A stretch of 46,824 bases of DNA from a virus: positions 1-46,824 of the IMG/VR virus record IMGVR_UViG_3300037149_000098. One strand, given 5' to 3'. Each line of letters opens with the position of its first letter. Position 1 is the first letter of the stretch. A program made the translations under genes and the position numbers. The notes under the pieces were generated by a model. The model was not told where the DNA came from. It was given only the letters and a program-made list of their open reading frames with translations, and did no database searches. Shown piece by piece: positions 3,490 to 46,824 of the stretch.

Positions 3490-3505
3490 AAGTCTGGTGA
3501 GAATT

Positions 3506-5561: not shown

Positions 5562-5562
5562 C

Positions 5563-15803: not shown

Positions 15804-15832
15804 ATAGGTTTTCGCTGGGAAGTGGGTATAAT
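15804..15832 (+). promoter_or_regulatory. Possible sigma-70-type promoter
   Basis: A perfect TATAAT at 15827-15832 lies in the 69-base gap before the third sigma-like gene. The expected -35 region (around 15804-15809) is poor, so this is a weak call resting on the -10 box and the gap. Confidence 0.3.
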
Positions 15833-15858
15833 AGGTTGCAGGACCACAGGAGGTTTTC

Positions 15859-28072: not shown

Positions 28073-28080
28073 GAGTAAAG

Positions 28081-28737
28081 ATGTCCGCACCCTTTAGTCT
28101 TTTACAAACGATTGGTAGTGGGGCCATAACCACTGCCTCACTGACTGGACTGGACCCCACCCTAACCTATAAATTCTACGTAAACTCCACAAATAGTGAT
28201 GGGACGAGCCCTAATTCAAACGTGGTAACCTTCGGAGCCCCTCCGCTCTTCTTTACTTATCTACCAAAATTCTTTAAGACTGTTCCTGGCGCCTCTGGAA
28301 TTCTAACTCAACCGGTCACTATGGTGGATGGCTCAGACCCCACCTCTTACACCTGGACCGCTACGTTGACAATGCTGAGTGTCATCCTTAACTTCCCTCC
28401 TAATACCTCTGATGATACCATCTTAAGTATCCCTGCGTCTACCACAGCCCCGACTCAAATCACCAATTATGAGTGGACATGGTTCGACTCCGCTACAGGG
28501 ACATTTTACCTTTCGAATAATTATACTAGCTGGTTCACCAATGGAGCCCGACTTTCGTTTGATGTTACGGCCACCAGAATTTCAGATGGGTTGATTTTGC
28601 AGGGAGCCTATTACTCTTTCCAAGCCCCGCCATCACTTGAGGTTGACCCCCTAACAACTTTTGGTTTTGCAGGATCAGGATTCCAGCCCTTCGGTCAGGG
28701 AACGTTCTCTCAGGGAGTTGTAAATGTCCGCAGTTAG
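28081..28737 (+). CDS. Fibre protein beginning with the second half of an FnIII domain
   Basis: 218 residues; ATG preceded by AGGAG with five-base spacing, where the upstream TAG stop forms part of the Shine-Dalgarno. Residues 10-50 contain the typical FnIII ending ([16 protein letters not shown]...S-D-G-T-S), but the first strands of that domain are encoded at the end of the upstream gene in another frame. The rest is beta-rich and ends in a Gly/Phe/Gln repeat ([15 protein letters not shown]). It may be a real separate protein that pairs with its neighbour, or the result of an indel. It overlaps the next gene by 14 bases. Confidence 0.68.
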
Positions 28738-30223
28738 TAAACCCGTAATTCAGACTAATCCATTCGCCTACGCAGGGTTGAAAAATGCTATCTCGTATGC
28801 ATCCAACTCCCCGGCTGCCTCCACACATGATGGGTTCCCTCAGATCACAATGCAGCCCATTGCCTTCGGCGGTCAGCCACCCACCGGTCAAGATTTTAAT
28901 GGTATTTTCAATTTTATAACCGCTTCTCAGGTTTGGACTAATTGTGGCGGCTACTGGTGGTACGATTCCAACTTTGCCGATACGATTGGTTATCCAATTG
29001 GTGCGGTGTTGAAGACTAACGATTTAGGCTATGAATTTGCCTGTATTGAAGACGGAACAGCCGTGGATCCTAATGTGAGCGGTCCAGACGGCACCAACTG
29101 GGCCTCTTGGGGTGGTCTGGTCTCCGGGGCTTTGAGGCATGTTCAAGATACTGGGCTAATTAATGCTCTAGTTGTCACTACTAAGCCTATTGTTACCAAA
29201 CTCTATGATGGCATGAGTTTCAGCGTTGTGGTAAAAAACACTATCACAGGTGCTTGCACATTGAATGTGGGAACGGGGGCCATCTCTATTGTTCGCTCTG
29301 ATGGCTCTACCCCCCACCCTAATGATATGGTAGCCGGGGGTTGCTACGAACTTGTGTATGACAAGGCCAAGGACAATTTCTTTGTTGGCTCCAGTGTGAT
29401 GGGTGCGACCGGTTTGACTGGTCCGACTGGTGCCCAAGGGCAAACCGGAAAAACTGGACTGACCGGTGCGACTGGTTTGACGGGCCTCACAGGTCAGAGT
29501 GGATACACCGGGTACACGGGGTCTACAGGGCCAACTGGTGCGGCTGGAATGACCGGAGCGACCGGTTTGACTGGCATTAACGGTAACACCGGCCTGACTG
29601 GAATCGTGGGGCCGACCGGACCGCAAGGCAATCAGGGTATCCAAGGTATCCAAGGTATCCAGGGTATCCAAGGTAATCAAGGTATCCAGGGGGTGGCTGG
29701 GGCTGCTGCCTATTCAGGCTACTTTACTGTGATCAACGGAATGGTTACCGCTGGAGTCAACCCAGCCGGTGCATCCATTTCCGGCTCTTCTACCAAGTTG
29801 TCAGCCACTTATAATTCAGGTAATACGGTTGAATTCACCGCTAACACTTCCTGCCTTGTAATCATTGGAGGGTGGCTATGGGCTCAAGGTTATGATAATT
29901 CGGCCCCCGGAGGAGGTCACTGTGGCTACATTGGCTCCATATACAATCAACAGACTAGTGTTGGAGGGTCCATTACAATTTGGCTTAGTAATGCAAACGG
30001 CAGTGATGTCCTTCCTATTTCTTACATTTTGAATAATCCTTATTGGAACCAGATGGTGCTCAATAGTTCTGGGAACGCCCCTTCGGCAACGGTTGCGATG
30101 GGTCAGATCACTGTTCCCCTGGCCGCAGGACAAGTGTTAGTCCTGACGATGAATAATACGTGGAACACTTCCGCTTGGATTCAGAGCACTTGGTACTGGT
30201 ACAGCTCTATCGCGGTCGTCTAA
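28724..30223 (+). CDS. Collagen-like tail fibre protein
   Basis: 499 residues. The N-terminal domain (about 1-130) is a phage fibre attachment type: [19 protein letters not shown], then W...G-G-Y-W-W-Y-D, then [10 protein letters not shown] second domain covers about 135-220. Residues about 226-327 are Gly-X-Y collagen-like repeats (GLTGATG, GPTG, then GIQ units), which would form a trimeric stalk. The C-terminal 170 residues are a beta-rich head resembling C1q/TNF-like trimer knobs ([18 protein letters not shown]). It likely makes the distal, receptor-binding part of a fibre. The stalk DNA holds 9-base tandem repeats at 29627-29689. Confidence 0.82.
29627..29689 (+). repeat. Tandem 9-base repeats in the fibre stalk
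   Basis: Seven units of GGTATCCAA or close variants, each encoding one Gly-Ile-Gln (or Gly-Asn-Gln) collagen triplet. Gain or loss of a unit keeps the frame, so slippage can change stalk length without breaking the gene. Confidence 0.85.
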
Positions 30224-30249
30224 CCGCTCCCTATGGAGTAATAGGTTAG

Positions 30250-30936
30250 ATGGACTTCAACTCTCAATTCGAATCTGTGCGCTCCGGGCTACTCACCGAA
30301 CAGACTATTCTTCAACGAAACCAAGTCAAGATTGATGATCTGGAAGCTCAGAAAATCATGAATACAAAAGCCCTGGGGGTCATAGACAAGGCCATCCAGG
30401 TCATCAGTGCAAACGGCATTGGCAAGGTGGAGTCCATCGTTTCAGATGGATTGAAACTAGTTTTTGACCAGGATCTCCAGCTTGTGATTGAACGTAAGGA
30501 GGGGGCCAGGGGGGACTCCTATCGTCTCATGGTCCAGGAAGGTGATGTGATTGGCCCCCCAATCGACACGATGGGTGGGGGCGTGGTCAATGTCATCTCC
30601 TTCCTCCTCAGAGTCATCATGATCCAGCGGTTCAAATTGAATAAACTGATCATCTTGGATGAAGCGTTCAATAACGTATCAGCGGACCGGCTCCCCAAGG
30701 TCTCAGAAATGCTCAAATCTCTCTGTGATGACCACGATTACACTATTTTATCAATTACCCAGCAGTCCTTGCTGGCGTGTGCGGCAGACCGAGTATTGAG
30801 TGTAGAAACGGGGCCGCTCCTGCGGGAGCTTACCTCTGATGAACTGGATGAATTGAGGGCAAATGGCTCAAATCAAAGTAAAGTCCGATCTGGAGATTCT
30901 GGCAAGGCTAAAAGAACTCCTTCAGCGACATCGTAA
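30250..30936 (+). CDS. SMC/Rad50-like half ABC-ATPase lacking Walker A
   Basis: 228 residues; AGG before the ATG. Residues 1-60 form a coiled coil. Then comes the C-terminal lobe of an SMC/Rad50-type ATPase: signature-like M-G-G-G-V-V-N-V near 107-114, Walker B L-I-I-L-D-E-A-F near 134-141, and the D-loop (N-N-V-S). The switch His is replaced by Gln (I-T-Q-Q). There is no P-loop anywhere in the protein. A set of bacterial and phage proteins with this half-domain is known, function unclear. It may complement another ATPase, bind DNA ends, or act without ATP hydrolysis. The tail is basic and Ser-rich. It overlaps the next gene by 74 bases. Confidence 0.72.
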   Translation: MDFNSQFESVRSGLLTEQTILQRNQVKIDDLEAQKIMNTKALGVIDKAIQVISANGIGKVESIVSDGLKLVFDQDLQLVIERKEGARGDSYRLMVQEGDVIGPPIDTMGGGVVNVISFLLRVIMIQRFKLNKLIILDEAFNNVSADRLPKVSEMLKSLCDDHDYTILSITQQSLLACAADRVLSVETGPLLRELTSDELDELRANGSNQSKVRSGDSGKAKRTPSATS

Positions 30937-31279
30937 ACGATATGTTAAGGCCAGACTCAAGCCCAAGGGCTCAAACTGTGCTCACAAAGTGTGGGACGAT
31001 GCGAAAAAGGAGTGGTTCTGTGAGGGCTGTGGGTCCAGAGACCCCGAACTATGCCTCAACCCTATGTGTTTCGAGCCTGAACTAACCAAAGAAGAACTGG
31101 CCGTGGCCTTCAGGGAGGATATCTGCAATACGCAGCGGATGCTTCGTGATTACCGGGATATTGCCACGCTTTTGTGGGTTCTGAGTCAGTTTGACGATCC
31201 GGCTGAGTATGAGCGGACCAAGGAAGGGTTGATTGGAATGGAGCAGCGACAGATCTCTGACACTCCGGAGAAAAAATGA
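30863..31279 (+). CDS. Small zinc-binding-like protein
   Basis: 138 residues; starts inside the 3' end of the ATPase gene (GAGGG upstream). The N-terminal basic helix leads to a cysteine/histidine cluster: C-A-H-K-V-W, then F-C-E-G-C-G-S, then C-L-N-P-M-C at about 39-73, likely one zinc site. The C-terminal half is helical. No named family. The long overlap suggests coupling with the half-ATPase. Function unknown. Confidence 0.65.
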   Translation: MAQIKVKSDLEILARLKELLQRHRKRYVKARLKPKGSNCAHKVWDDAKKEWFCEGCGSRDPELCLNPMCFEPELTKEELAVAFREDICNTQRMLRDYRDIATLLWVLSQFDDPAEYERTKEGLIGMEQRQISDTPEKK

Positions 31280-31371
31280 ACAAAGAGCCTATACGGATTG
31301 TCGATGTTGTGGGTATAATAGCTGTAGTGGCCATCCTCTTGGTCGCTCATTTTTTTCTGCATTGGATCTGA
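31276..31371 (+). CDS. 31-residue single-pass membrane protein
   Basis: Tiny gene between two real ones: its ATGA overlaps the upstream stop, and its stop lies one base before the next start, so it fills the gap exactly. After a charged start (MNKEPIRIVD), residues 10-30 are one hydrophobic helix ending in aromatic residues. Likely a small inner-membrane protein; role unknown. A TATAAT inside it is coding sequence. Confidence 0.6.
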   Translation: MNKEPIRIVDVVGIIAVVAILLVAHFFLHWI

Positions 31372-31372
31372 T

Positions 31373-32374
31373 ATGAAACTTCTGGTTAAAACGATCTACG
31401 GTTCTAAACTGTTCGGCACCGCCCTCCCCACTTCTGATACGGACCTAAAAGCCGTGTTCGTATGCGACATGGAGGGGTTGGTTTTCAATAAAACCGATGC
31501 GGAGAACACGGTGGAGGGAAAGGGAAGCCAGAAGGTCGAGTTCGAAGCACACCACATTTCCAACTTTTGCCGTATGCTCAAGCAGGGGCAGACTCTGGCC
31601 TACAGCATGTTGTTCACGCCAAAGGATCTGGTGGTCAGCACCTCTGATGCATGGGAGGAGTTGGTGGAGAACAAGGCTCGGCTGGTGAGCAAGAATCTTC
31701 GGCCCTTTGTCGGCTATGCTCGTTCCCAGGCTCAGAAATACAGTCTGAAGGGGGAGCGTCTGGCCACTCTTGATCATTTCATTGAGGACATTAAGATGTT
31801 CCTGGATGAAAAAGAAGTCACCCCCAATGGTCGTCTTTATGAATCCGCTTTTTGTGGGCTCATGGAGCATTACAAGGATGCTGAGGGTGCTAGACTTTGG
31901 ACTGAGCACACAGCCAACATGGACGTTCGGCATATCGAGATCTGTGGCAAGAGTTTCGGTGAGACTACCCCTCTGAAGTTGTGGGTAACACCCCTGATGG
32001 AGCTTCGCAGTCGCTACGGGGGCCGCTCCCAACAGGCCAAAGAGGACAAGGGCATTGATTTGAAGGCCATGTATCATGCGGTTCGGATCACAAGTGAGAT
32101 GAACGAAATCCTCACCACTGGTAGTCTCACATACCCTAGGCCAGAGGCCCCACTGCTCATGGATATTCGCAATGGCAAGTTGACGAATCGTGAGGTTGGT
32201 GATATCATCGACCGTCTCATCTGTACGGGTGACGAGTTGTTTGAAACCTCCACTCTTCGGGATAAACCTGATGCTGAGTGGCTGGATGACTGGCAGCTTC
32301 GCACTCAAGGTGACGCAGCCTTCTGGGCTTGGAGTAATCGAAATGCCATGGTGAGGCCCAATGCACGTTCCTGA
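31373..32374 (+). CDS. RlaP-like nucleotidyltransferase
   Basis: 333 residues. The N-terminus carries the nucleotidyltransferase signature: I-Y-G-S-K-L-F-G-T-A-L-P-T-S-D-T-D-L-K at about 8-26, where G-S and the D-x-D pair bind nucleotide-Mg. A third acidic residue is likely in the following strand (VEFEAHHI). The helical C-terminal two thirds match the RlaP/DUF-type predicted nucleotidyltransferases found in bacteria and many phages. The substrate is unknown; RNA-end or protein modification is proposed for relatives. It overlaps the next small gene by 14 bases. Confidence 0.75.
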   Translation: MKLLVKTIYGSKLFGTALPTSDTDLKAVFVCDMEGLVFNKTDAENTVEGKGSQKVEFEAHHISNFCRMLKQGQTLAYSMLFTPKDLVVSTSDAWEELVENKARLVSKNLRPFVGYARSQAQKYSLKGERLATLDHFIEDIKMFLDEKEVTPNGRLYESAFCGLMEHYKDAEGARLWTEHTANMDVRHIEICGKSFGETTPLKLWVTPLMELRSRYGGRSQQAKEDKGIDLKAMYHAVRITSEMNEILTTGSLTYPRPEAPLLMDIRNGKLTNREVGDIIDRLICTGDELFETSTLRDKPDAEWLDDWQLRTQGDAAFWAWSNRNAMVRPNARS

Positions 32375-32540
32375 TCCCGTAGAACTCTCAGAGGCGCGGA
32401 TCGACCGGCTCATGGCCTTGTTTGTCGATGAACATACCTGCATGGAGTGTGGAAAGCACGTAGACTACGAGTTGTACTGTATGTCACCACAAGGGGATGG
32501 CCCGTGCGTTTGCATGGAATGCGCGGGGGTTAGCGAGTAG
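32361..32540 (+). CDS. 59-residue zinc-finger protein
   Basis: Small gene overlapping the nucleotidyltransferase stop by 14 bases and ending three bases before the next start. The N-terminal helix (ELSEARIDRLMALFVDE) is followed by two knuckles: C-M-E-C-G-K and, after a turn with another Cys, C-V-C-M-E-C. This is a compact zinc-binding fold by cysteine spacing. No membrane segment. It may bind nucleic acid or a partner protein; function unknown. Confidence 0.65.
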   Translation: MHVPDPVELSEARIDRLMALFVDEHTCMECGKHVDYELYCMSPQGDGPCVCMECAGVSE

Positions 32541-32543
32541 TCT

Positions 32544-33275
32544 ATGGGTTTATACTTACAAGACGCATGGTGGAACGACCTTAACGAATTGAGGTCCAGG
32601 ACAGAGAAGCTGTATGAGAAAATAGGTCGTGATATGTGGCAAGTCACGGCTGAAAAAATGATTGCGCTTCGAGGCTGGAAAATCAAGGAGTCTGAGGTCA
32701 TTCCAGTTTTGCAGGAATTGGGAGCGTATTATGTCCCCAAGAAAATGATTCCTGGCCCCATGTTCGTGTTCCCCAAGGTGGATGCGGCGGGGCATACCAC
32801 TAGTGCTCAGACAAAGCCTCTCCACGACTTGTTTGGCCCCGGTAAGTATCATACACTAGGGGTGAGTCAGAAAGTCTTTCTAGGCCCTACCTGGATAGGG
32901 AATACAGATGAGACGCTGGAGAAGATCCTACGGCTAAAATCGGTCACACTGGCAGAGGGTCCGTTTGATTTGGTGGCCGCGAAGATCCTGGCCCCCCTCC
33001 TCCCTATTATGTCTTCCCTCACCAAGTCTATTGGAGAGAAGCATGTCGCGTATTTGAAGATCCTTGGAGTTCAGCATCTCTACCTGTTGTTTGATCATGA
33101 TGAGGCTGGTGAAAAATCTAAAATCATTCTGAGTAAAATTCTGGACATTCCGGTAGAGGCGATTGGTGATTGCCCAGGAGACGATCCTTCTGGGGCGTTA
33201 AAGACTAAAGGTACAAAAGATGCTCTCCGTCGAGTATTAAAGACCATAGAAGAGGATCATGAACATGATGATTGA
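32544..33275 (+). CDS. TOPRIM-domain primase-like protein
   Basis: 243 residues. Residues about 132-220 form a TOPRIM fold as in DnaG: L-A-E-G-P-F-D (catalytic Glu at 138), then L-Y-L-L-F-D-H-D-E-A-G (Asp 184 and 186), then C-P-G-D-D-P-S-G. This is the primase/topoisomerase metal site that joins nucleotides. The N-terminal 130 residues look like the small domain that precedes TOPRIM in primases and hold no zinc finger. With the CHC2 protein at 18064 it could make a two-piece primase. It overlaps the next gene start. Confidence 0.78.
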   Translation: MGLYLQDAWWNDLNELRSRTEKLYEKIGRDMWQVTAEKMIALRGWKIKESEVIPVLQELGAYYVPKKMIPGPMFVFPKVDAAGHTTSAQTKPLHDLFGPGKYHTLGVSQKVFLGPTWIGNTDETLEKILRLKSVTLAEGPFDLVAAKILAPLLPIMSSLTKSIGEKHVAYLKILGVQHLYLLFDHDEAGEKSKIILSKILDIPVEAIGDCPGDDPSGALKTKGTKDALRRVLKTIEEDHEHDD

Positions 33276-33633
33276 CTCCATCCCTTTGCTTAGAGGAGCC
33301 CTCTATAAGGTCTTCAAACACCGTGACACAGCGGAGATGATGGATGTATTTATCTCCGGAGAGTGTGGTCGCTATTGGATTTATGACCTCACTTTGGAGG
33401 ATGGAACCGTTACCCCGTTTATCGACTATTCTCTCCAAGATGGAGGAGGCTGGCTCAATACGGGCTGCTCCTATACAGATTTTGTAGCTGCGGTGGACCA
33501 AATCATTTCCACTTGGCCTCTGTCTGAGGGTATCAAAACAATTCTTGAAAATGAAAAATCCAGGCTTGCAAAATTGATGCAAGACAGTATCAGTAATAGC
33601 AAGCCTGATTCACTGCCCAAGGAGGCAAAATGA
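33265..33633 (+). CDS. Hypothetical protein
   Basis: 122 residues from the ATG at 33265 (GAGG nine bases upstream); in-frame ATGs at 33259 and 33268 are alternatives. The N-terminal 90 residues look like an alpha/beta domain with several Trp and Gly residues (YWIYDLTLEDG, GGGWLNTG). The C-terminus is a charged helix. No family recognised. Start and stop overlap both neighbours, so translation is coupled. Confidence 0.6.
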   Translation: MMIDSIPLLRGALYKVFKHRDTAEMMDVFISGECGRYWIYDLTLEDGTVTPFIDYSLQDGGGWLNTGCSYTDFVAAVDQIISTWPLSEGIKTILENEKSRLAKLMQDSISNSKPDSLPKEAK

Positions 33634-33782
33634 ACAACGTAGCGAAGTTTTTTTACTCGGTCGGTGGGGTGGCGGTCGTCACTCTCGGCTCCTGGCTCCT
33701 CAATTTCGGACTCATCCATGGCCTTATCGCGGGTGTGATCCTCTGCATCGGAGCCCACATCTTTCTTAAGCTGAAGGGGTAA
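33630..33782 (+). CDS. 50-residue two-helix membrane protein
   Basis: ATGA overlap with the upstream stop, and the next gene begins six bases after its stop. Two hydrophobic segments, about 8-26 and 29-45, with a Gly/His turn between and basic ends (K6, KLKG). A small helical-hairpin membrane protein. Holin-like size and layout are suggestive, but its place among replication genes argues against a simple lysis assignment. Confidence 0.58.
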   Translation: MNNVAKFFYSVGGVAVVTLGSWLLNFGLIHGLIAGVILCIGAHIFLKLKG

Positions 33783-33788
33783 GTCACA

Positions 33789-35096
33789 ATGATGTTTGGT
33801 AAAGGAACATGGACCCTGCTGAAACTAGTGCAGGGTGATGGGGGTGTGACCCCATTGGAAGCCTTCAAGACAGCGTTTGAAGCCGCTGGGTCTCGCTATA
33901 TTCCCCTTGTGGCCATTAGCGAGGCTATCCACGAGAAGTCTTCCACGATTGGCCTCGCTCCCTTTTCTCAGCCCCGCATGGGGGATCTGGAAGAGATCGA
34001 GTTCTACGTGGACAAGGCGGCAAAGGACTTCAAATCAGAAGATACGGAGTGTTTTATCAATAACCAGACCAACCTCCGTGAATGGGAGATGGTCGATGGG
34101 GAGCTTCTTTCGGGGCAGATTCATGTCCCCCTGGACCCTTTCTGGGAGCCAAGTTTTGATCAGTGGCAGTTCTCCCCTGGTGTTTACGGTATGTGGGTAA
34201 TGATGTTCGAGTATATCGACGCGATGGATGTGAACAGCAAGAAAGAGCATCTGGCCTACAATTACGGTGCCCCTTTCAAGTTCCAGTCTGCGGATATCAA
34301 GAAGCAGATCACCGAACAGGTGGAGGATATCAACACCTTCGTTCGCAAGCACCATCAGGTGGTGATTGACTTCAATATGGGCTACATCTGGATTAGTAGT
34401 GGGGCAAAGGCAATTCTTGAACCCGTCATGACCTTGCTGGATGAAATGGGCCTGATTTTTGAAACCCCCACTGATTTGGTGGGAGACATCAACGCAGATG
34501 ACGTTTCTGAGGCTCTGGAGACGCTGTACAACGCTTCCGTGATCAAGGATGATGTGGTGCGCCGTCTGGAAGAGTTCAAGCTCCACGGAGCCGATGGGGT
34601 TGAACCAGACTCCAACGCAGTGATGGAGAAGATCCTGAAGGCTTATTGTGCATTCAGCGAAATTCAGGGGTTCCATGTCGGCATGTCCGCGCCATTGGCC
34701 CTTTTTCTGGATCCCCGCTTCGTCTCACCCACAGCAGCCAGGAGCACCTACGAGGTGACAGAGCTTCTCAACTCGCATGAGTCGGCACGGGTAGCAGTCG
34801 CAGATTTGACGTTCTGTCATTACACTGATAGGATTGCCAAGAACGGAGAACCCAGGAAGTTTCTGGAGAAGCTGTTCAGCATTCAGGCATCCCCTGTGTT
34901 ATTCCATAAGGATCTTCCAGGGCTTCGAGTCTGTGGTTTGAATATCGATAACTACAGACGGATGATCAAGGTTCATATCAAAGCCACTGGTAATGCCCCA
35001 ACGATTGCGGAATACTGGAAGATGAGTCACGACTCCATGAAGGAATCGGTGTTCACTTACTACTCCGTGCTGAAGGACATCAAAGAATCCAGGTAA
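33789..35096 (+). CDS. Hypothetical protein, possibly RdgC-like
   Basis: 435 residues; two ATGs in a row at the start. Unrecognised at high confidence. The middle has K-K-Q-I-T-E-Q-V-E-D-I, a loop, then VVIDFNMGYIWIS and SSGAKAILEPVMTLLDEMG. This order (basic helix, strand 'wiD...g.i.v', helix of 'k.ae.v...L') is loosely like RdgC nucleoid/exonuclease-regulating proteins. Length is longer than the usual RdgC of about 300. Position in a replication/repair cluster fits, but I rate this guess low. No cysteine cluster or membrane segment. Confidence 0.55.
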   Translation: MMFGKGTWTLLKLVQGDGGVTPLEAFKTAFEAAGSRYIPLVAISEAIHEKSSTIGLAPFSQPRMGDLEEIEFYVDKAAKDFKSEDTECFINNQTNLREWEMVDGELLSGQIHVPLDPFWEPSFDQWQFSPGVYGMWVMMFEYIDAMDVNSKKEHLAYNYGAPFKFQSADIKKQITEQVEDINTFVRKHHQVVIDFNMGYIWISSGAKAILEPVMTLLDEMGLIFETPTDLVGDINADDVSEALETLYNASVIKDDVVRRLEEFKLHGADGVEPDSNAVMEKILKAYCAFSEIQGFHVGMSAPLALFLDPRFVSPTAARSTYEVTELLNSHESARVAVADLTFCHYTDRIAKNGEPRKFLEKLFSIQASPVLFHKDLPGLRVCGLNIDNYRRMIKVHIKATGNAPTIAEYWKMSHDSMKESVFTYYSVLKDIKESR

Positions 35097-35121
35097 TAGA
35101 TAGTAGGAAGAGGGAGCACTG

Positions 35122-36153
35122 TTGAATTTCTGGGCACCGGTATCGCTGAATCAAATTGTGGGCAACACTAGATCATTGGAGTTGCTTAGAGCGATCCTGG
35201 AGAACCGGGATCGTGCTCCCTCCTGCTATGTGTTAGACGGGCTGAATGGAGTCGGGAAGAACGCCATGGCTAAGCTGTTTCTCCATGAGTTGTTTCCCGA
35301 TGTCAAACCTAAAGTTGTCCAGCCTGAATTTTTCACACAAACGCTACAACAGGAAGACCTGGACGAGTATACTTGTCTGATTTGGGATCATGCGGAGCGG
35401 CTATCCACCGAACAGGCGGATCAACTTTGCGCTTATTTGGATCGATCAGATGTGAAATCGGTTTCGGTGTTCCTCTGTGTTAATTACAACAAGGTGCATA
35501 AAGGGCTCAGGGCCAGGGCCTTACGAATTCCTTGCTTGAAGCCAAGTCGAGCGGATCTGGTTGGTCTGCTTGGCTCCATTTGCGCGAGTCACCATCTTAA
35601 CTTTGAGCTAGAGGCGCTTAACCTCATAGCTGCCCGAAGTTCAGATACCCCTTCACGAGCTATTCTAGACCTTCAGGCTATTTCAGTGATGGGAGGGGTA
35701 ACAACTAAGACGGTGTGTAAATTGCAAGTAAATATTGAGGAGCAAGCTATCCAGCTTCTAACTAATATTGATCATCCGGATATCATGAAAATGGCTAGTT
35801 TGATTAAGGATATGCACCCCATGGAGGAGCTTATCGATGCTTTATTTGAAGTATATTCGACAGCTTTTTATGATAGTACAAAATCTCTTGGGGTTATTGC
35901 CGAAAAACTGAGTAATTATAAAAGGGTGGGAGACATTTTCATTAAATGGAAATCTGTTGTGGCTCCTCCCTCCTCAGCGTTGTTTATTCTCATAAAAGAA
36001 CTGGTAGATTCAAGAAAAGCAGTGGAAATGCCAGTTTTCATCTCCTCCCCTTCTCCAAAAAAGGAGGTCCAACGGGCTCCCATTGCCACGGAGGAAAGTT
36101 GGAACAAAATTATTTCTGAAGCGAGTAATATCGGTGATTCTTCAATACGGTGA
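35122..36153 (+). CDS. Clamp-loader-like AAA+ protein with altered ATP site
   Basis: 343 residues, TTG start six bases after GGGAG. Order and motifs match DnaX/RFC-type loaders: the N-terminal W-A-P-V-S-L-N-Q-I-V-G, then Walker A G-L-N-G-V-G-K-N at 40-47, Walker B-like C-L-I-W-D-H-A-E at 85-92, and the L-R-A-R-A-L-R-I segment where sensor/SRC residues lie. The Walker A Thr/Ser is Asn and the Walker B acidic pair is D-H, so ATP hydrolysis may be lost, as in delta'-type subunits. It would load a sliding clamp for the phage polymerase. No clamp gene was recognised here. It overlaps the NusG-like gene. Confidence 0.72.
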   Translation: MNFWAPVSLNQIVGNTRSLELLRAILENRDRAPSCYVLDGLNGVGKNAMAKLFLHELFPDVKPKVVQPEFFTQTLQQEDLDEYTCLIWDHAERLSTEQADQLCAYLDRSDVKSVSVFLCVNYNKVHKGLRARALRIPCLKPSRADLVGLLGSICASHHLNFELEALNLIAARSSDTPSRAILDLQAISVMGGVTTKTVCKLQVNIEEQAIQLLTNIDHPDIMKMASLIKDMHPMEELIDALFEVYSTAFYDSTKSLGVIAEKLSNYKRVGDIFIKWKSVVAPPSSALFILIKELVDSRKAVEMPVFISSPSPKKEVQRAPIATEESWNKIISEASNIGDSSIR

Positions 36154-37231
36154 TATCAAAAAGCTCAAAGGACTCAAGTGGTATATCCTTGAAGTCAGAT
36201 CAGAGCGAACAGTAGAGAACGTAATTCGTCGTGTTGGTAAGACCATGCCTACTATATTTAAGGACGGAGGGTCTTGTGAGGTGTTTGTTCCGATAGAGGA
36301 CCGAGATCTCAATTTGTTTAGCCTATCCACCTCCTCCTATGTGTTTCTCCGTTCTGATCGAAAGAAAGAATTACAGAAGTTCAAAGGGGTCACAGGTGTG
36401 GTAGGGATCCTCTGTGAGGGGGAGCAGCAGCGGATTGATAAGGCCCTGATGGTGGAGGATGACTACGTTCAGGAATTAATCAAGATGACAGAGGAGAAGT
36501 TTATGAAGAGCCCAGAGTCCATACAGGTCGGCTCCTTTGTTCGTATTCTGGATGGTTTGGATAAAGGGTTCTGTGGGCATGTATCTCGCATAGATCGAGG
36601 CTACGCCCTGATCCGGGTTGAGCTTAAAACTAGACAGATGTTCATTGATACTCCTCTGCACAATCTCAAAGATTTGAGTTTTGTGCCACCCAACTCAAGA
36701 GTGTTTTACTACTCTGACTTAGTGGACGAGTATGTGAAGGAGTACAGTGATGAGGCCATCATGACCCTAGCTAAGGATTTGGAGTTTGTGATGGAGGTGA
36801 CTGAACCCCTCCCCTCTGATGAACCAGATGAAAAGAAAGTCAAGTATGGTCGGCAGAAGACCGTTACGGCCATGACAAAGAAATTGATATTCAGCGGCAT
36901 CAAAGACCCAAAGGTCATAATTAAAGAAACATTGGCAGCCATTGAATCAAGTGACATCAAAAAACCGAAGAGTGCGTTTATCTTCTATTCAATCCTTAAA
37001 CAGGCCATCATGGAGACCCTGTTCAAAGATGATAGTAGGATCAAAACTTATAAAGATGTGGTCAAGTATTACGGGGATTCTTACCGTTTTTCTCCAAAAA
37101 TGATCGCTGAATTGGATGAACATTCGATCCTACCTCCAAAAAGCGAGACCTCGGATAAATCGAATCAGCACTCTACAGTAATAAAAATCAAACTGACCAA
37201 GGAGTCAAAATGTCAAACACCACCGGAATAG
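36134..37231 (+). CDS. NusG/Spt5-like transcription elongation protein
   Basis: 365 residues from the GTG at 36134. The frame is open from a TTG at 36083, but no ribosome-binding site is properly spaced there. NGN domain: L-K-W-Y-I-L-E-V-R-S-E-R near 15-26, the E-V-F-V-P strand near 55, a S-Y-V-F-L-R segment (GYvfvr position) near 75, and G-V-T-G-V-V-G near 93. KOW domain: V-G-S-F-V-R-I-L-D-G-L-D-K-G-F-C-G-H-V near 137-155. NusG family members ride on RNA polymerase and affect pausing and termination. A roughly 180-residue helical C-terminal extension is unusual. The gene lies between the loader and the actin-like ATPase, overlapping both. Confidence 0.75.
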   Translation: MILQYGDIKKLKGLKWYILEVRSERTVENVIRRVGKTMPTIFKDGGSCEVFVPIEDRDLNLFSLSTSSYVFLRSDRKKELQKFKGVTGVVGILCEGEQQRIDKALMVEDDYVQELIKMTEEKFMKSPESIQVGSFVRILDGLDKGFCGHVSRIDRGYALIRVELKTRQMFIDTPLHNLKDLSFVPPNSRVFYYSDLVDEYVKEYSDEAIMTLAKDLEFVMEVTEPLPSDEPDEKKVKYGRQKTVTAMTKKLIFSGIKDPKVIIKETLAAIESSDIKKPKSAFIFYSILKQAIMETLFKDDSRIKTYKDVVKYYGDSYRFSPKMIAELDEHSILPPKSETSDKSNQHSTVIKIKLTKESKCQTPPE

Positions 37232-38292
37232 GATTAGATATTGGTACCGCTTACATCGTCTCTGCCAAATCTGACATCGACAATAAAGTCAAAATTAGCT
37301 CGGTAAGGGACTGCTTTCTTGCTCTCCCTCTGGATCAATCTCCCGCATTGGAGATTGCGGGAGTGGAGTTCATTGAGGGTGCAGAGGAGGTCTATGTGGT
37401 CGGTAACGATGCGATCAATTTGATTGGTGTCCTCGGAGGGGAGCTACGCCGTCCTCTCAGCAAGGGCTTTATCAGTCCCAAGGAAGAAGATGGGAAGGAG
37501 ATACTTCAACTCATCCTTCAGCAGATCCTTGGAAAGCCCCAGGTTCCGGGGGAGCTTGTGGCTTTCTCAGTACCTGGGCCTATTTTTGACGTTGAATCCA
37601 CGGTCGCCCCTAAACCCAGCCATGATTCCTCTCTGACCTTCCATACCAGCTTCTTCAAGAATCTGATCACCGATCTGGGTTATACGGCCCGTCCGGTCAA
37701 CGAAGCGGTAGCAGTCTGCTTCAATGAAACCGTGGTCCCCAAGAACCCATCTGAAACCCCCCTAACCGGACTCTCAATTTCGTTTGGTGCTGGCACTACA
37801 AATTTGGCCTTAACATTCAAATCTATTCCTGTTAAGTGCTTTGCTCTTCCCTTCGGCGGAGATTATGTAGACCAGATGGCAGCCAAGGCCACTGATTCCA
37901 CACTTTCTCATGTAACTTTGTTGAAAGAACGTGGTGTTGATTTGATGACTGGACTCGTAACAACCAAGGGTGAGTTTGACGATACCCAGACTGAACGTCA
38001 GGCCGAAGCAATTGCAGTCGCCTATGCAGACCTAATCACTAAATTGGTCAACGCCACCAATAAATTCTTCAGCTTCAATGAGAATCGTGTGGAAATCCCT
38101 GATACTATTCCGGTCATCCTGGCGGGTGGGACTACTAAGGCCCCCAATTTCATGAAACTTTTCAATAAAATTTTCATGGAGAATCTTGATGTGAGATTCA
38201 AAGTTTCAGAGGCAAGGCTGTCCGCAACTCCTTTGGATGCTACGGCCAGTGGCTGCTTGAACTTCGTCCGGATCCTTCAGAAAAGAGGCTAA
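37210..38292 (+). CDS. Actin-like ATPase (ParM/MreB/Hsp70 fold)
   Basis: 360 residues; AAGGAG before the ATG. Motifs of the actin superfamily in order: phosphate-1 G-I-G-L-D-I-G-T-A at 6-14, connect-1 P-V-N-E-A-V-A-V near 163-170, phosphate-2 I-S-F-G-A-G-T-T-N-L near 189-198, adenosine V-I-L-A-G-G-T-T-K-A-P-N near 301-312. Length fits plasmid ParM/Alp proteins. These polymerise with ATP and move or position DNA or other cargo. A DNA-binding partner and iterated centromere site are not evident nearby, so plasmid-type partition is unproven. The next gene encodes a membrane-anchored coiled coil, a possible partner. Confidence 0.8.
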   Translation: MSNTTGIGLDIGTAYIVSAKSDIDNKVKISSVRDCFLALPLDQSPALEIAGVEFIEGAEEVYVVGNDAINLIGVLGGELRRPLSKGFISPKEEDGKEILQLILQQILGKPQVPGELVAFSVPGPIFDVESTVAPKPSHDSSLTFHTSFFKNLITDLGYTARPVNEAVAVCFNETVVPKNPSETPLTGLSISFGAGTTNLALTFKSIPVKCFALPFGGDYVDQMAAKATDSTLSHVTLLKERGVDLMTGLVTTKGEFDDTQTERQAEAIAVAYADLITKLVNATNKFFSFNENRVEIPDTIPVILAGGTTKAPNFMKLFNKIFMENLDVRFKVSEARLSATPLDATASGCLNFVRILQKRG

Positions 38293-38344
38293 TCGGAGTA
38301 GTGGGCTACCCGTTTCTCTGTTTGTAGCGGAACAGGTAACTCTC

Positions 38345-39232
38345 ATGAATGACGATAAAGCTCTCCTTAATTCAGTCCCAGCATTGGTCCCAGCCCCAGC
38401 GGTTACCCCGCTCCCCGTGGCCCCCCCGAGACTTCAAATGCCCACCATTAATTTCAGTGGTGGGCATTTTATCATAATGCTCATAGCCATTGGAATCACA
38501 TGGTGGGTGACTAAACGCAATCTCCCTACTCAAGCCATCGCTCAGACTCAGATGGCTCAATTCCAAGCCCTTTCTGATAAAGTTGACCAACTAGCCGGTC
38601 ACGTAGTCACACAATCTGACCTTGAAGACAAGGTTAAGGCTCAGATGGGATCAGCCTTCTCCGCAGCGGTAGCCAAACAGGATGGAACCCTCACTAATCT
38701 TGCCACAGCAGTTGGGCAAATCCAGGGGCAATTATCAGCTATGGGTCAGACCACGGTACAGAAAACACCTACCGGAGGCTTCAGCACCACTCTGAATCAG
38801 GATAGAGGGGCAGCCCCCCCGCTTACCAGTGTAAATCTCACATATGATCCGACCTCCTCTGGGCTTAAAAGTCAGTGGGATAATCATACTGAAAAATTTA
38901 CAGCAAGTTATGGAGAGTGGAGAACTAGCGGGGATGGCGCGAGAGCGGCACTTACACTGTCTAGGGATGTGTATAACGGCTCAGTGAAAGTTGGAACTGA
39001 ACAGATCCCCCTAGTCAACGGAGACGCCTATTTCAGTCAATCTGATATTGCTCGAACTGCTCCAACACCAAAGTATACGTTTATGATTGGATCCAGTTAT
39101 GATATGCAAACAGGGAAACCCCACCTGAGTGGTCTGATCGGAAAGCAGTTCTCCCCAGTATCTGGGATTGCTACCGGCTATGTGAATAACGGATGGACAG
39201 TCCTTTATACCTATAGGTTTGGCACGAAATAG
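38345..39232 (+). CDS. Membrane-anchored coiled-coil protein with beta-rich C-terminus
   Basis: 295 residues. A Pro/Ala-rich cytoplasmic-looking start (1-38) is followed by one membrane helix at about 41-56 (HFIIMLIAIGITWWV) and K-R. A helical coiled coil covers about 62-135, and a Ser/Thr/Gly-rich beta region reaches the aromatic C-terminus (Y-T-Y-R-F-G), similar to outer-membrane beta-strand ends. Orientation is probably N-in or as a signal anchor. It follows the actin-like ATPase by 52 bases. Function unknown; envelope-spanning or filament-anchoring roles are both conceivable. Confidence 0.62.
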   Translation: MNDDKALLNSVPALVPAPAVTPLPVAPPRLQMPTINFSGGHFIIMLIAIGITWWVTKRNLPTQAIAQTQMAQFQALSDKVDQLAGHVVTQSDLEDKVKAQMGSAFSAAVAKQDGTLTNLATAVGQIQGQLSAMGQTTVQKTPTGGFSTTLNQDRGAAPPLTSVNLTYDPTSSGLKSQWDNHTEKFTASYGEWRTSGDGARAALTLSRDVYNGSVKVGTEQIPLVNGDAYFSQSDIARTAPTPKYTFMIGSSYDMQTGKPHLSGLIGKQFSPVSGIATGYVNNGWTVLYTYRFGTK

Positions 39233-39377
39233 TGTATTTTTAACACTGAGTCAGAATCGTAGTTTTATGCGAGTTCCTCAACAACATAAAAGTAAATTTT
39301 GGCCTTAATAAACTGAATATTCAGTACCTAGAATAGGTGAGGAACTTCCCCCTTTTTGATATCATAGGAGACGCAAC
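39233..39377. promoter_or_regulatory. Intergenic control region with nested inverted repeats
   Basis: 145 gene-free bases. A 14-base perfect palindrome ACTGAATATTCAGT lies at 39312-39325. It is enclosed by AGTTCCTCA (39272-39280) and TGAGGAACT (39338-39346), exact reverse complements. TAGAAT at 39329-39334 could be a -10 box. AT-rich. The palindrome looks like a dimer-protein operator; the outer arms may also form an mRNA hairpin. Confidence 0.45.
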
Positions 39378-39884
39378 ATGGCAGCACCCATCAGTGCAAC
39401 TGGAGTGACTGGAGCAACCGGAGCAACTGCTCCTCCCCTCCCCCCCATCACTATTGTAATCAACAAGGCACAGTTTGAGGCGGCGGTCCAGCAGTATCTC
39501 AACTTATCCCCCGCAAAGGCAGAGTTGGATGTCATCAAGTCGTTGAGTTGGCCGTCCTGCTGCATCCCCCCAGCCCTTTGGACTACTATGGCAGATGTGG
39601 AGACCCTGATTGCCTTGGTCGCCTCAGCTTGTGAGTTGGCAAAGACGGCTATCCTGAAACAGTATGACCCTGCGGGAACCTTGGGAAACAAGATTGACAA
39701 CGAGATCGTACTCGCTGTGGCAGTGCAGATTGTGGGTCAGGCCATTTCCTTTGGTGGCATTTTCGGTGTGTTGGCCGAGCATCTGAAAGAGGGGCTCCTC
39801 TCTATGCTGGTAAGCATCTGGGTAGACCAGCAGCCCACAAACTGGGTTTCGCTGGCAGAAAAAATTCTCGGCCTCAGTCTCTAA
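39378..39884 (+). CDS. Hypothetical protein with short G-A-T repeat start
   Basis: 168 residues; AGGAG before the ATG. The first 20 residues (ATGVTGATGATAPP) recall the collagen-like/fibre repeats elsewhere in the window. The remainder is Ala/Leu-rich and helical with hydrophobic stretches (LVASACELAKTAIL; ILAVAVQIVGQAISFGGIFGVL region, exact residues about 115-138) that might cross a membrane. Two adjacent Cys residues near 55. No known family; function unknown. Confidence 0.6.
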   Translation: MAAPISATGVTGATGATAPPLPPITIVINKAQFEAAVQQYLNLSPAKAELDVIKSLSWPSCCIPPALWTTMADVETLIALVASACELAKTAILKQYDPAGTLGNKIDNEIVLAVAVQIVGQAISFGGIFGVLAEHLKEGLLSMLVSIWVDQQPTNWVSLAEKILGLSL

Positions 39885-39895
39885 TCGAGGTCAAT

Positions 39896-40171
39896 GTGTG
39901 CCTTCTTGCTAAAATCGGAGATCATGAATACATGGCCTTTTTTAAGCCAGTGCATGGCAGCACCGACTATAGCGGGAGAATAGAACTCCGAGACTCCACC
40001 TTTCAAACTATCCCTCTTGACTCTCTACTCGGCCCCATTGGTAGTATCCTGGTTAAGGATCCCGCTGAGGCCGATTGGCATGAAATGTCTATAGAAGACT
40101 TAAAACAATTGGCCAAGGATTCTATGGCGAAATCTCTCGTCGGCCTGCAAAGTCTTTCGAAGCAGTCATGA
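39896..40171 (+). CDS. Small hypothetical protein
   Basis: 91 residues, GTG start shortly after a GAGG. An N-terminal beta-rich part (LAKIGDHEYMAFFKPV) is followed by an acidic helix and a Lys/Ser-rich helix. No motif recognised. In a row of small genes between the control region at 39233-39377 and the terminator at 40752-40780. Confidence 0.55.
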   Translation: MCLLAKIGDHEYMAFFKPVHGSTDYSGRIELRDSTFQTIPLDSLLGPIGSILVKDPAEADWHEMSIEDLKQLAKDSMAKSLVGLQSLSKQS

Positions 40172-40210
40172 CAAAACGCAGTATTAGTAGAGCAGGTAGA
40201 AGGAGTTTGG

Positions 40211-40456
40211 GTGGGTGTCTTGAGCCTTAGTAAGTTAGACCGTATTGAACCGAAGGGCGGGACACGCTCCACATATGAGAAGAGGGCACCGGCAGGTTCC
40301 AAGGCAATTCCGTGCTGTCTCCAATGTAGGGCACCCTTTGACTTGGCAGAACTGTCTATGGTAGATCAGATGGACGCCCTGGACGGTGTTTTGATTTGTG
40401 AAGATTGCAAGAAAGAGAACAAACTTTCTGAGCAAAAGCACCACCATTTCGAGTAA
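40211..40456 (+). CDS. Small zinc-finger protein
   Basis: 81 residues, GTG start after AAGGAG; a TTG at 40220 is the alternative. After a basic start the protein shows C-C-L-Q-C-R-A-P-F-D-L at about 33-43 and I-C-E-D-C-K-K at about 63-69, a treble-clef or DksA-like four-Cys spacing. It ends His-rich. It might bind RNA polymerase or nucleic acid by analogy with DksA/TraR-type fingers, but the helical coiled coil typical of DksA is missing. Function unknown. Confidence 0.6.
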   Translation: MGVLSLSKLDRIEPKGGTRSTYEKRAPAGSKAIPCCLQCRAPFDLAELSMVDQMDALDGVLICEDCKKENKLSEQKHHHFE

Positions 40457-40510
40457 TACATAACATACCAGCGGAATCCTCCGCACCCCGTTAACTCAAA
40501 GGAGAGTCCT

Positions 40511-40717
40511 ATGACCACCAAGCCCGATGTAACCTCAGTCATCAGAGGAGAGTTCGCCAAGACCGACACGCTCACCGTCAAGCAGATCAGAGCCATCAGT
40601 CCCGAACTCGACAACGCCAATCTCGTTCGCAAGGGGTTCAAGGCCCTGATTGCCGAGAATCTCTGCACTCTGGAGGGCAGCAAGCGCGGATCCAAATACG
40701 TCCGCAAGCAGTCCTAA
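40511..40717 (+). CDS. Small winged-HTH-like protein
   Basis: 68 residues, AAAGGAG before the ATG. Pattern: helix, T-V-K-Q-I-R-A-I-S-P-E-L, N-A-N-L-V-R-K-G-F-K-A-L-I recognition-like helix, then a wing (TLEGSKRGSKYV) with a basic end. This is a typical small winged helix DNA-binding layout. It is the last gene before the strong terminator at 40752-40780. It could regulate phage transcription, for example at the 39312 palindrome (inference). Confidence 0.6.
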   Translation: MTTKPDVTSVIRGEFAKTDTLTVKQIRAISPELDNANLVRKGFKALIAENLCTLEGSKRGSKYVRKQS

Positions 40718-40751
40718 CCAGACCCCAAGAGCACAGCAAGTTGATGAGTAG

Positions 40752-40780
40752 ACCGAGGCTTAAATGAGCCTCGGTTTTTT
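40752..40780 (+). terminator. Intrinsic terminator
   Basis: CCGAGGCT (40753-40760) pairs perfectly with AGCCTCGG (40767-40774) around a six-base loop, followed directly by six Ts (40775-40780). This is a classical Rho-independent terminator. Confidence 0.92.
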
Positions 40781-40797
40781 ATTGCTGGACTTTTTGT

Positions 40798-40812
40798 CCC
40801 TCCTGTAGAGGG
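40798..40812 (+). promoter_or_regulatory. Hairpin burying the lipoprotein-like gene's ribosome-binding site
   Basis: CCCTC (40798-40802) pairs with GAGGG (40808-40812) around CTGTA. The right arm is the Shine-Dalgarno of the ATG at 40820. A competing hairpin, GGAC/GTCC (40787-40799), shares two bases with it, so a switch is conceivable. Confidence 0.4.
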
Positions 40813-40819
40813 GGTAGCC

Positions 40820-41605
40820 ATGCGACCCATATGTTTTGCCCTAGTGATGGGGTTGGTATTAATGGTAAATTGCGGGAGGACACCTCCCCCCATAAAGACG
40901 GTGGCCCCCGTTCCGGCTGAAACAACCATTCGGACTAAGGTAGAGGAACAGGCCGTTTCTAAATCAGTGGCGAAAGCTGTCCAGCAGTCTCATCTTAAGA
41001 TAGCAGCCACTCCTAAACCACCTCCTAAACCCCCTGAGAAGGAAGCAATGGATACTTTGGAAGTGGAAACTGACACCTCTGTTTGGACAGTGGGGAAGAC
41101 GGGGATCATTACAGTGGTGATCGCTGAGCCGGAACTAGTAGCGGACGCCTCTCATTCGAATGAGATTGGCATCGGGTCCACTTTGGTGCCTATCTCCGCA
41201 TACTATCTCGTAGCCCTCGAAGGAGCCCTTCCAGGGCAGTTTGATATCGCTCCCGCCCCAGGACAGCAGGAAAAGCAACACAGGGCTCCAAAGGGCTATC
41301 CGGCCACTTGGCGATACGAAATCACACCGCTTCGCAAGGGGAAGGTGGACCTTCTCTTCACCCTGAAAATTTTTGCGGAGAATGATACGGCTGGGACAGC
41401 CATCGCTACCCGTCCCCTTCATCTGGATGTTACCTCAAAATTTCCCTCTTCATTTTTATTCAGTCTGAACCACACTATTACCAACGGCCCCGGCTGGGGA
41501 GCAGTATTAGGAGTTGTGGCCGCCCTCATCACAGCGTTGGCATATTCAACGTGGTGGAGAAGTAGGCGCAAAAGTCGTAAAAAGCAAATCGTTTCGAAGG
41601 ACTGA
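40820..41605 (+). CDS. Lipoprotein-like protein with C-terminal membrane helix (possible u-spanin)
   Basis: 261 residues. N-terminal signal with Cys 18 after a hydrophobic stretch (FALVMGLVLMVNC); the residue before Cys is Asn, which is poor for a lipobox. Then a Pro/Lys/Val-rich linker, a beta-rich periplasmic-looking domain (about 75-210), and one C-terminal membrane helix near 222-243 followed by a strongly basic tail (RSRRKSRKK). An N-terminal lipid anchor plus C-terminal membrane helix is the layout of unimolecular spanins, which join outer to inner membrane during lysis of Gram-negative hosts. The weak lipobox and lack of adjacent holin/endolysin keep this tentative. Confidence 0.6.
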   Translation: MRPICFALVMGLVLMVNCGRTPPPIKTVAPVPAETTIRTKVEEQAVSKSVAKAVQQSHLKIAATPKPPPKPPEKEAMDTLEVETDTSVWTVGKTGIITVVIAEPELVADASHSNEIGIGSTLVPISAYYLVALEGALPGQFDIAPAPGQQEKQHRAPKGYPATWRYEITPLRKGKVDLLFTLKIFAENDTAGTAIATRPLHLDVTSKFPSSFLFSLNHTITNGPGWGAVLGVVAALITALAYSTWWRSRRKSRKKQIVSKD

Positions 41606-41650
41606 AACCAGCTAGTTTACCACTACCAGCTTCTCTTGAAAGGGGACACA

Positions 41651-41878
41651 ATGGACACCGTGAAACAGTCTTGTCAGGTGTTGGATCGCATCCTACGTCA
41701 GGGTGGGGTGATCGATGAATCTGCGTTACCCTATGATAACGACTTGCTTATGTACAGACTAACCCAGAGAAAGTTCATTCAGCCTACCGCTACGTATGAC
41801 AGCGGGGAACGCATTTTTGCCATAACCGACAAGGGCATTGCAGAATTGGAGCGTCACCCCAGTCATGCCGGGAACTGA
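41651..41878 (+). CDS. Small winged-helix-like protein
   Basis: 75 residues from the ATG at 41651 (AAAGGGG seven bases before); the frame also opens at a TTG at 41636. Helical start with V-L-D-R-I-L-R-Q-G-G, a second helix with Y-R-L-T-Q-R-K-F-I, and a terminal strand-wing-helix I-F-A-I-T-D-K-G-I-A-E-L. The last motif (T-D-K-G-x-x-x-L) is common in winged HTH regulators. Likely DNA-binding; target unknown. Confidence 0.58.
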   Translation: MDTVKQSCQVLDRILRQGGVIDESALPYDNDLLMYRLTQRKFIQPTATYDSGERIFAITDKGIAELERHPSHAGN

Positions 41879-41879
41879 T

Positions 41880-42152
41880 ATGTTTCCCGTTGACTACCGC
41901 ATCCACCAGTTGGAATTGCGTGTCAACGGCTGGTTGTTCCCCCATGTATGGCTGGCTATTTATTCATTTGATAAAGTCGTGAAGTATGCTCTGATGGTTG
42001 AAGACCCCACCTTTGGCAGATTCGAATTATCAAGTAATATGGTAGTAGAATGGAAGACCAAAGGACGATGGTATCAGACTAAGCCGCAGTTTGTGATTAA
42101 TCACCTACTCGCTAAAGGAGCGTACGATGACGCAGAGGCCCAAGAAGGTTGA
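41880..42152 (+). CDS. Small hypothetical protein
   Basis: 90 residues from the ATG at 41880, one base after the upstream stop; in-frame ATG at 41865 and TTG at 41838 are alternatives. Rich in Trp, Tyr and Phe (WLFPHVWLAIYSF, WKTKGRWYQ), beta-rich, ending in an Ala/Glu helix. No known family. It overlaps the next gene by 26 bases. Confidence 0.55.
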   Translation: MFPVDYRIHQLELRVNGWLFPHVWLAIYSFDKVVKYALMVEDPTFGRFELSSNMVVEWKTKGRWYQTKPQFVINHLLAKGAYDDAEAQEG

Positions 42153-42306
42153 AGATATTGAAGACCAGATGGACGCAGCGATTGATCAAAAAGATCATAA
42201 GGAAATGAGAAAGTGCCGCCATGGGATCAGCAAACATATCGAATCCAGCGTTAAGCTCAGGATTTCTGATGAGGTGGAAGATCCCCCATCCTGGAAATAC
42301 GAGTAA
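42127..42306 (+). CDS. 59-residue charged helical protein
   Basis: Overlaps the upstream gene by 26 bases and ends 20 bases before the helicase start; AAAGGAG lies before its ATG. Highly charged (Asp, Glu, Lys), one Cys and several His in the middle (KCRHGISKH), acidic C-terminus with Trp. No known family. Probably coupled to the helicase gene. Confidence 0.55.
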   Translation: MTQRPKKVEDIEDQMDAAIDQKDHKEMRKCRHGISKHIESSVKLRISDEVEDPPSWKYE

Positions 42307-42326
42307 TACGTAAGGTGAGGGTCGGC

Positions 42327-44270: not shown

Positions 44271-44273
44271 TAA

Positions 44274-46819: not shown

Positions 46820-46824
46820 GTATC

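Follow-up and report, generated by a model that had tools for sequence, protein, structure and literature searches.

The window, by which we mean the whole 46,824-base stretch of a virus record, carries on its plus strand a gene for a 365-residue protein (36134-37231) that resembles NusG, a universal factor keeping RNA polymerase in motion. The gene begins with a GTG codon and overlaps by 20 nt the DNA polymerase clamp-loader gene located directly upstream on the same strand (35122-36153; PHROG 5846, E 2.8e-14). The start at 36134 is backed by the proteins of relatives, including that of the phage Tunturi_5, which begin at the same residue (MIL.YGD). Directly downstream, and likewise on the plus strand, there is an actin-like gene (37210-38292; Pfam Volactin PF25216, E 2.8e-48), from a family named after an archaeal actin. 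The NusG-like gene belongs to a plus-strand run opened by a gene at 31373, which encodes an RlaP-like nucleotidyltransferase (31373-32374; Pfam PF10127, E 2.2e-7; PHROG 388, E 1.1e-64). Some specialised NusG genes head operons (PMC12118408), and the gene described here sits instead in the middle of its run, behind the clamp loader. A copy 99% identical at the protein level is found in a much longer IMG/VR contig of 313,597 bases (G001). Elsewhere in the window, two primase-like pieces lie about 14 kb apart and are possibly a split primase: one at 18064-18693, which matches PHROG 18097 primase at E 1.6e-5 and has a family of unknowns as its best match, and the other at 32544-33275 (PHROG 47 primase, E 1.3e-7; Toprim_2 under its cut-off). 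Tunturi_5 also has two genes annotated as primase (gp4 and gp22). Two reading frames resemble GIY-YIG homing endonucleases, one on the plus strand (4908-5561; PHROG 314, E 7.1e-28) and one recognised by eye on the minus strand (17156-18052), where it appears to be the main gene of the window.

As a single sequence, the protein resembles NusG only faintly, with every NCBIfam and Pfam score lying far under the curated cut-offs. Its best NCBIfam match is UpxY (E 8.8e-7, 29.1 bits against a cut-off of 100), and the matches to TIGR00922 NusG (E 3.6e-4, 20.4 bits against a curated 135.7), LoaP (E 1.3e-3, 18.9 bits against 125) and Spt5 (E 0.028) likewise fall short, as does the Pfam KOW match (E 0.056). 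No RfaH model was among the NCBIfam matches and a phmmer search of PDB sequences returned nothing relevant. PHROG 6386, a 'transcription antiterminator' family from a collection that has no curated cut-offs, was matched at E 1.8e-4 across profile positions 13-177 of 179, while four relatives matched it at E 0.00085-0.067. A profile built from 21 members of the family identified Spt5 and NusG chains only at E 0.025-0.74, alongside ribosomal L24 and one unrelated peptidase. When the 21-row alignment, from which Tunturi_5, the members with inteins, duplicate sequences and the near-identical L005/L009 are excluded, was compared with 26 bacterial NusG sequences using hhalign, this single pairwise comparison yielded an E value of 4.4e-8 and a probability of 94.9% over E. 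coli NusG residues 67-160, which comprise the second half of the NGN domain and most of KOW. The first ~60 residues are placed on NusG by fold rather than by profile comparison. From the same 21 rows, AlphaFold2 predicted (mean pLDDT 81.1, pTM 0.54) a beta-alpha pattern like that of NGN, followed by a KOW barrel and two helices and then, beyond a disordered linker, by a helical domain with a disordered tail; a pTM this low is what domains joined by flexible links would give. Foldseek comparison of this model with the PDB produced 27 matches at E <=0.001, all of them titled NusG, RfaH, Spt4/5 or transcription complexes, with a best E value of 7.8e-7 and with RfaH entries at E 1.6e-4. Because the family profile and the structure add to the weak single-sequence matches, the kinship with NusG is firm. 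The preliminary description of this DNA had read the gene as a phage-borne NusG/Spt5-like protein with both NGN and KOW domains, and each of these claims is now confirmed; both folds were present and no other family matched much more strongly.

The NGN domain comprises residues 1-100 (36134-36433, plus strand) and is predicted with pLDDT values of 85-94 per ten-residue block. In VIA comparisons, it superimposes upon 1m1h (Z 9.5, rmsd 2.8 A, 98 residues aligned) and upon E. coli NusG 6c6u_N (Z 9.1, rmsd 2.6, 96 aligned). The KOW domain, delimited by AlphaFold2, VIA and the alignment, consists of five strands within residues 129-184 (36518-36685, plus strand) and matches human DSIF KOW6-7 (5ohq; Z 8.7, 1.5 A, 52 aligned) as well as 3c4s (Z 10.1, 1.2 A, 55 aligned), the latter being the cyanobacterial protein Ssl0352 and no NusG. 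A MAFFT alignment of the 21 members indicates that the NusG positions W9, P45, G91, V134, G139 and G146 are retained, as is an aromatic residue at the position of F144 (21/21); Y68 and G131 are each retained in 19 members and replaced in the other two by L and D, respectively. Missing from the family is the FFPG stretch that precedes Y68 in NusG, and the alignment shows a shorter NGN hairpin at this site, so the contact with polymerase may differ. A further departure concerns the NusG loop residues I164-F165-G166, which contact Rho (PMC7593976). Each of the three is retained in at least 90% of the 26 NusG sequences, a set composed of E. coli NusG plus 25 from one phylum, and is absent from all 21 phage members. 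At this position the phage proteins mostly read LKT[KR] plus a gap, with an invariant T, although the exact placement of the gap depends on the MAFFT alignment. Since the Rho-contact loop is replaced, Rho should not be brought by the phage protein to a polymerase that carries it.

The remainder of the protein is foreign to normal NusG, as the preliminary description had suspected, and the extension estimated there at roughly 180 residues measures 181 (185-365). It starts with helices and an acidic, partly disordered linker (residues 185-236; 36686-36841, plus strand; mean net charge of -8.0 over 21 members), in which AlphaFold2 places helices at 195-216 and disorder at 220-239. This is followed by an orphan basic domain of five helices (residues ~237-334; 36842-37135, plus strand), delimited by a separate structure prediction, charge and conservation, and by a variable tail of about residues 335-365 (37136-37228, plus strand), for which the model shows disorder at 337-365. 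When residues 232-337 were predicted alone, the five helices were obtained with a pLDDT of 88.8 and a pTM of 0.79. The net charge of this domain is positive in 21/21 members, with a mean of +9.4 and a range of +5 to +14, a count in which the L036 copy is shortened by the end of its contig. Between the window and the relative L004, dN/dS is 0.005 for residues 1-100, 0.005 for residues 101-185, 0.075 for the linker and 0.019 for the C-terminal domain, and between the window and L003 the C-terminal domain has zero amino-acid changes at a pS of 0.41; in three other pairs synonymous sites were saturated and no ratio was obtained for the domain. Judged by these comparisons, purifying selection on the protein is strong, the C-terminal domain included.

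The origin of the C-terminal domain was sought in several directions. It has no PDB sequence match at E <=5, its best Foldseek match to PDB folds (E 2.6) is not convincing, and its best VIA score among the 170 chains compared is Z 3.7, although weak or absent fold matches are not proof of a new fold. A resemblance to a yeast clamp-loader fold was too weak to use (VIA Z 2.3), and derivation of the domain from the clamp loader (hhalign E 0.39) or from another part of the NusG fold (against NusG, E 0.063 across 27 columns) is unsupported. Similarly, an HMG-box match appeared in one relative at E 0.031 and was absent from the other members scanned. Searches of PHROGs with 20 members at E <=1 returned 17 scattered families of unknowns (best E 1.3e-4), which could be faint relatives of the domain. 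The domain is present once per record, within the NusG-like protein, in 12/12 records, and no second genomic copy was detected in these at E <=10; the L024 protein itself seems to hold the domain twice (hhalign E 8.6e-6, probability 83%).

Further elaborations were encountered among the relatives. In L014, L015, L019, L026 and L034 the C-terminus is prolonged by a tail rich in cysteine (TDKCGECFHER...CWCKRF, with variants), which may bind zinc; that of L019 has no Pfam match. Intein-like inserts are found in three distinct relatives (L023:2721-5033, L026:6001-8397 and L027:3847-6114, the last identical to L028), all at one shared conserved site in the C-terminal domain, placed by eye after the residue matching Y285. 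The L023 insert matches a Pfam splicing domain and LAGLIDADG_3 above cut-off and the L026 insert LAGLIDADG_3 only, while the L027 insert has a weak Pfam match under cut-off (E 0.0068). Transcription elongation factors seldom carry inteins, and the conserved site shared by these inserts is probably a constrained position.

When examining the distribution of the family, we found members in 29 IMG/VR contigs of 9.5-463 kb, and the carriers form a set of giant phages from soil and peat. In a collection of 50,697 phage records, from which records very near the window were possibly excluded, the sole match was Tunturi_5, a phage of 308,711 bp whose host is Tunturiibacter (Acidobacteriota). Exactly one copy of the NusG-like gene is present in each of the 11 phage records searched (170-463 kb). 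One contig of a Geobacteraceae MAG also carries a member and is probably a binned phage piece; a host origin of the gene was rejected, as just one of 198 genomes of the MAG's phylum matches, namely the MAG itself. Of 32 neighbourhood rows, 29 have the clamp-loader gene upstream and in the same orientation, at a distance of <=30 bases in 12 and farther away in the rest, and was not seen in the sequenced flanks of L017, L027 and L028. The volactin-like gene lies downstream in 8 of 32, where some flanks are shortened. Some of the 32 rows are identical copies and several of the queries were taken from these same loci. RfaH-like genes have been reported on prophages (PMC7593976), and short phage NusG-like proteins are already present in BFVD and PHROGs, just as Tunturi_5 gp25 is already labelled 'transcription antiterminator'. 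Our partial search of the literature found no description of a phage NusG with an extra domain, and as far as we found, an architecture of three domains that includes an orphan basic one, the spread among jumbo phages and the loss of the loop are previously undescribed.

Which polymerase such a protein might serve can be approached through the remaining transcription genes. The RNA polymerase families PF00562, PF04998 and PF00940 had no match above cut-off in eight records, including the window fragment, and no RNA polymerase is annotated in Tunturi_5. A sub-threshold PF00940 match in Tunturi_5 (E 0.023) has a stop inside, and the PF00940 search matched 0 of 14 control genomes, leaving it with no positive control. 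Polymerases of the phiKZ type may have diverged too far to be recognised by these Pfam models. Since no phage RNA polymerase family was found above cut-off, the host RNA polymerase is the likely target of the NusG-like protein. The window was also thought to hold three sigma-like genes, for which no coordinates were given, and three candidates were therefore chosen by eye (3398-4303, 5545-6312 and 15859-16671). Of these, one gains support: the gene at 15859-16671 (plus strand), a putative phage sigma factor and an ortholog (34% identity, E 1e-36) of Tunturi_5 gp3, which is annotated 'RNA polymerase sigma factor', a second annotated sigma factor in that phage being gp211. The other two are unsupported. 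None of the three has a sigma match in Pfam or PHROGs, and Pfam sigma regions r2 and r4 had no match in the window at E <=1; region 2 exceeded its cut-off in Tunturi_5 and in another record, G002, and region 4 in G002.

Promoter-like motifs were also evident. The motif GGGTATAATA occurs on the plus strand at 15824-15833, 35 bases before the sigma-like gene, and at 31311-31320, with 62 bases between it and the gene starting at 31373, this second copy falling within a possible 31-aa ORF (31276). GGGTATA[AC]TA is found 13 times in the contig G001, whereas 50 shuffles contained it 0.76 times on average and 3 times at most, and all 13 copies lie outside the genes of a crude caller. This 'outside genes' is approximate, since the caller accounts for 80% of the contig and overlooked the clamp loader, and since one copy (window 31311) falls in the possible small ORF. 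Upstream of these sites, an exact CTATACAAA occurs within 26 bases in 4/13 and TATAC in 8/13. In the same contig, GAGTAATA occurs 32 times (19 outside called genes) versus 6.0 expected and a maximum of 11 in shuffles, and GAGTAATA and GAGTATTAT, often located upstream of genes, are a possible second promoter class. The 10-mer GGGTATA[AC]TA is absent from Tunturi_5 (0), which is enriched in motifs of its own: against 20 shuffles, TGGGTATTA occurs 40 times versus 0.3, TCATCTTTGG 20 times versus 0.6 and TGTAGGTTGA 22 times versus 0.3, and every one of the 20 copies of TCATCTTTGG has G[TC]AGGTTG downstream, with exactly 13 bases in between. Tunturi_5 has two strongly enriched classes of promoter-like site, one being TCATCTTTGG with G[TC]AGGTTG and the other TGGGTATTAGC, which is strongly enriched over the whole record (L001, L051-L057) and by eye often has an upstream GATATTC/AATAATC element. 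The enriched motifs look like phage promoter classes, which the phage sigma factors would presumably read, and together with the sigma ortholog they suggest that the phage reprograms transcription. Within 27000-46824, promoter-like sites show no excess (22 versus 21.1) and terminator-like sites are at chance level (22 found versus 19.3 expected). A hairpin with a T run at 31326-31347, after the motif at 31311, was considered as an attenuator ahead of the operon and is unsupported, as this sequence may belong to a membrane ORF of 31 aa, and as L004 has lost the T run and L003 has a shorter one; the hairpin itself can still form in the window (-10.8 kcal/mol), L004 (-9.4) and L003 (-6.4). No recruitment element was found either through this candidate hairpin or, otherwise, through k-mer counts upstream of genes.

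Long one-strand transcription units had likewise been postulated, and G001 bears this out with 64 consecutive plus-strand genes at 148,210-213,274, as delimited by the crude gene caller mentioned above. A basic extra domain, a host polymerase as the likely target, long gene blocks and loss of the Rho-contact loop together make a specialised, Rho-blind NusG paralog, acting as a processivity or antitermination factor, the best reading of this protein, to which we assign a probability of about 0.6. Counting against it are the scores far under the curated cut-offs, the missing FFPG stretch, the placement of the first ~60 residues by fold, the failure to find a recruitment element, the chance level of terminator-like sites, the possible escape of divergent phage polymerases from the models, the sub-threshold PF00940 match in Tunturi_5 and the position of the gene in mid-run. 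Put simply, the protein probably helps the phage to read its long gene blocks with the host polymerase unstopped, and antitermination, an idea favoured by the loss of the Rho-contact loop, is plausible. Most likely, the NGN domain would dock on the clamp helices and gate loop of the host RNA polymerase and suppress pausing. With a KOW domain devoid of the Rho-contact loop, polymerases carrying the phage factor instead of host NusG should resist Rho termination, and this resistance would extend over long phage gene blocks. The basic helical domain, in turn, would most likely bind either a phage partner or nucleic acid, be it the nascent RNA or the DNA upstream, and, tethered by its acidic flexible linker, would retain the factor on complexes that transcribe the phage. 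A bolder version, which we regard as distinctly unlikely, is that of an antitermination machine made of one polypeptide, in which a Rho-blind NusG core and a new nucleic-acid-binding fold would accomplish by covalent linkage what lambda N, NusB and NusE accomplish when they assemble on boxA/boxB RNA. Such a machine would have no fixed recruitment site or would be recruited via the replication proteins encoded next to it, such that only polymerases on phage DNA receive the factor.

Several other explanations draw upon the same observations. The protein could serve general elongation, taking the place of host NusG on polymerases that transcribe phage DNA with no true antitermination, while its KOW domain couples transcription to the ribosome via S10. 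The aromatic residue found in 21/21 members at the F144 position speaks for such a factor, and the 43 tRNA genes reported for Tunturi_5 (PMC11924767) suggest that translation matters to these phages; however, the loss of the I164/F165 loop argues against this explanation and a conserved extra domain would be superfluous to it, which renders it unlikely. The same NGN fold, strongly conserved as it is, would equally suit a factor of host takeover that binds the host RNA polymerase, displaces host NusG, and shuts off or redirects host transcription. Yet host shut-off genes are usually variable and located among small early genes, whereas the NusG-like gene is conserved and adjoins the clamp loader, and we find this role very improbable. 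That same adjacency, seen in 29/32 rows and within 30 bases in 12, together with genes for a DNA polymerase and for primase-like proteins that share its strand in the window, might instead suggest a replication-linked protein, either an NGN/KOW scaffold used for another purpose or a link between transcription and the replisome via the C-terminal domain. Gene neighbourhood is weak evidence, though, and the C-terminal domain shows no kinship with the clamp loader by the hhalign value given above, making a replication role highly doubtful as well.

Jumbo phages of a lineage that has no detectable polymerase, yet brings along a NusG, a sigma factor and promoter-like motifs specific to the phage, would exemplify phage control of the host enzyme at initiation as well as during elongation. 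In the orphan C-terminal domain they offer a defined, testable module, and Tunturi_5 with its cultured Tunturiibacter host makes the system accessible.

Among known systems, the closest counterpart is Tunturi_5 gp25 (XOB77468.1, 'transcription antiterminator'), an ortholog that is 42% identical over 93% of the query and has the same domain order and a clamp loader upstream, but whose next gene is dissimilar to the volactin-like gene of the window; neither 'antitermin' nor 'NusG' occurs in the main text of the Tunturi paper (PMC11924767). Bacterial NusG (TIGR00922) shares the NGN and KOW folds, W9, P45, Y68, G139 and the aromatic residue at F144, whereas the phage protein lacks the Rho loop and has 181 extra residues and a shortened NGN hairpin. 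Like the 21/21 phage members, RfaH has lost the Rho-contact loop (PMC7593976). UpxY is the top NCBIfam match, yet the score of the phage protein is under the UpxY cut-off, as it is under that of LoaP. Unlike RfaH, UpxY and LoaP, the phage protein has an extra C-terminal domain, a KOW predicted in the beta form, and no ops-like or RNA element that we could find. The short phage NusG/RfaH-like proteins (PHROG 6386; BFVD F5B3X4, A0A6J5PZH6 and A0A6J5MAV8) have a similar predicted fold or profile, and the five BFVD matches at E <=0.001, with 146-241 residues, are too short for an NGN-KOW core plus a 181-residue extension. Two other phage factors, Xp10 p7 and lambda N, are not known to be NGN-KOW proteins. 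The likeness to them would lie in the role we propose, as both are phage processivity/antitermination factors acting on a host polymerase (PMC4513864; PMC7819879).
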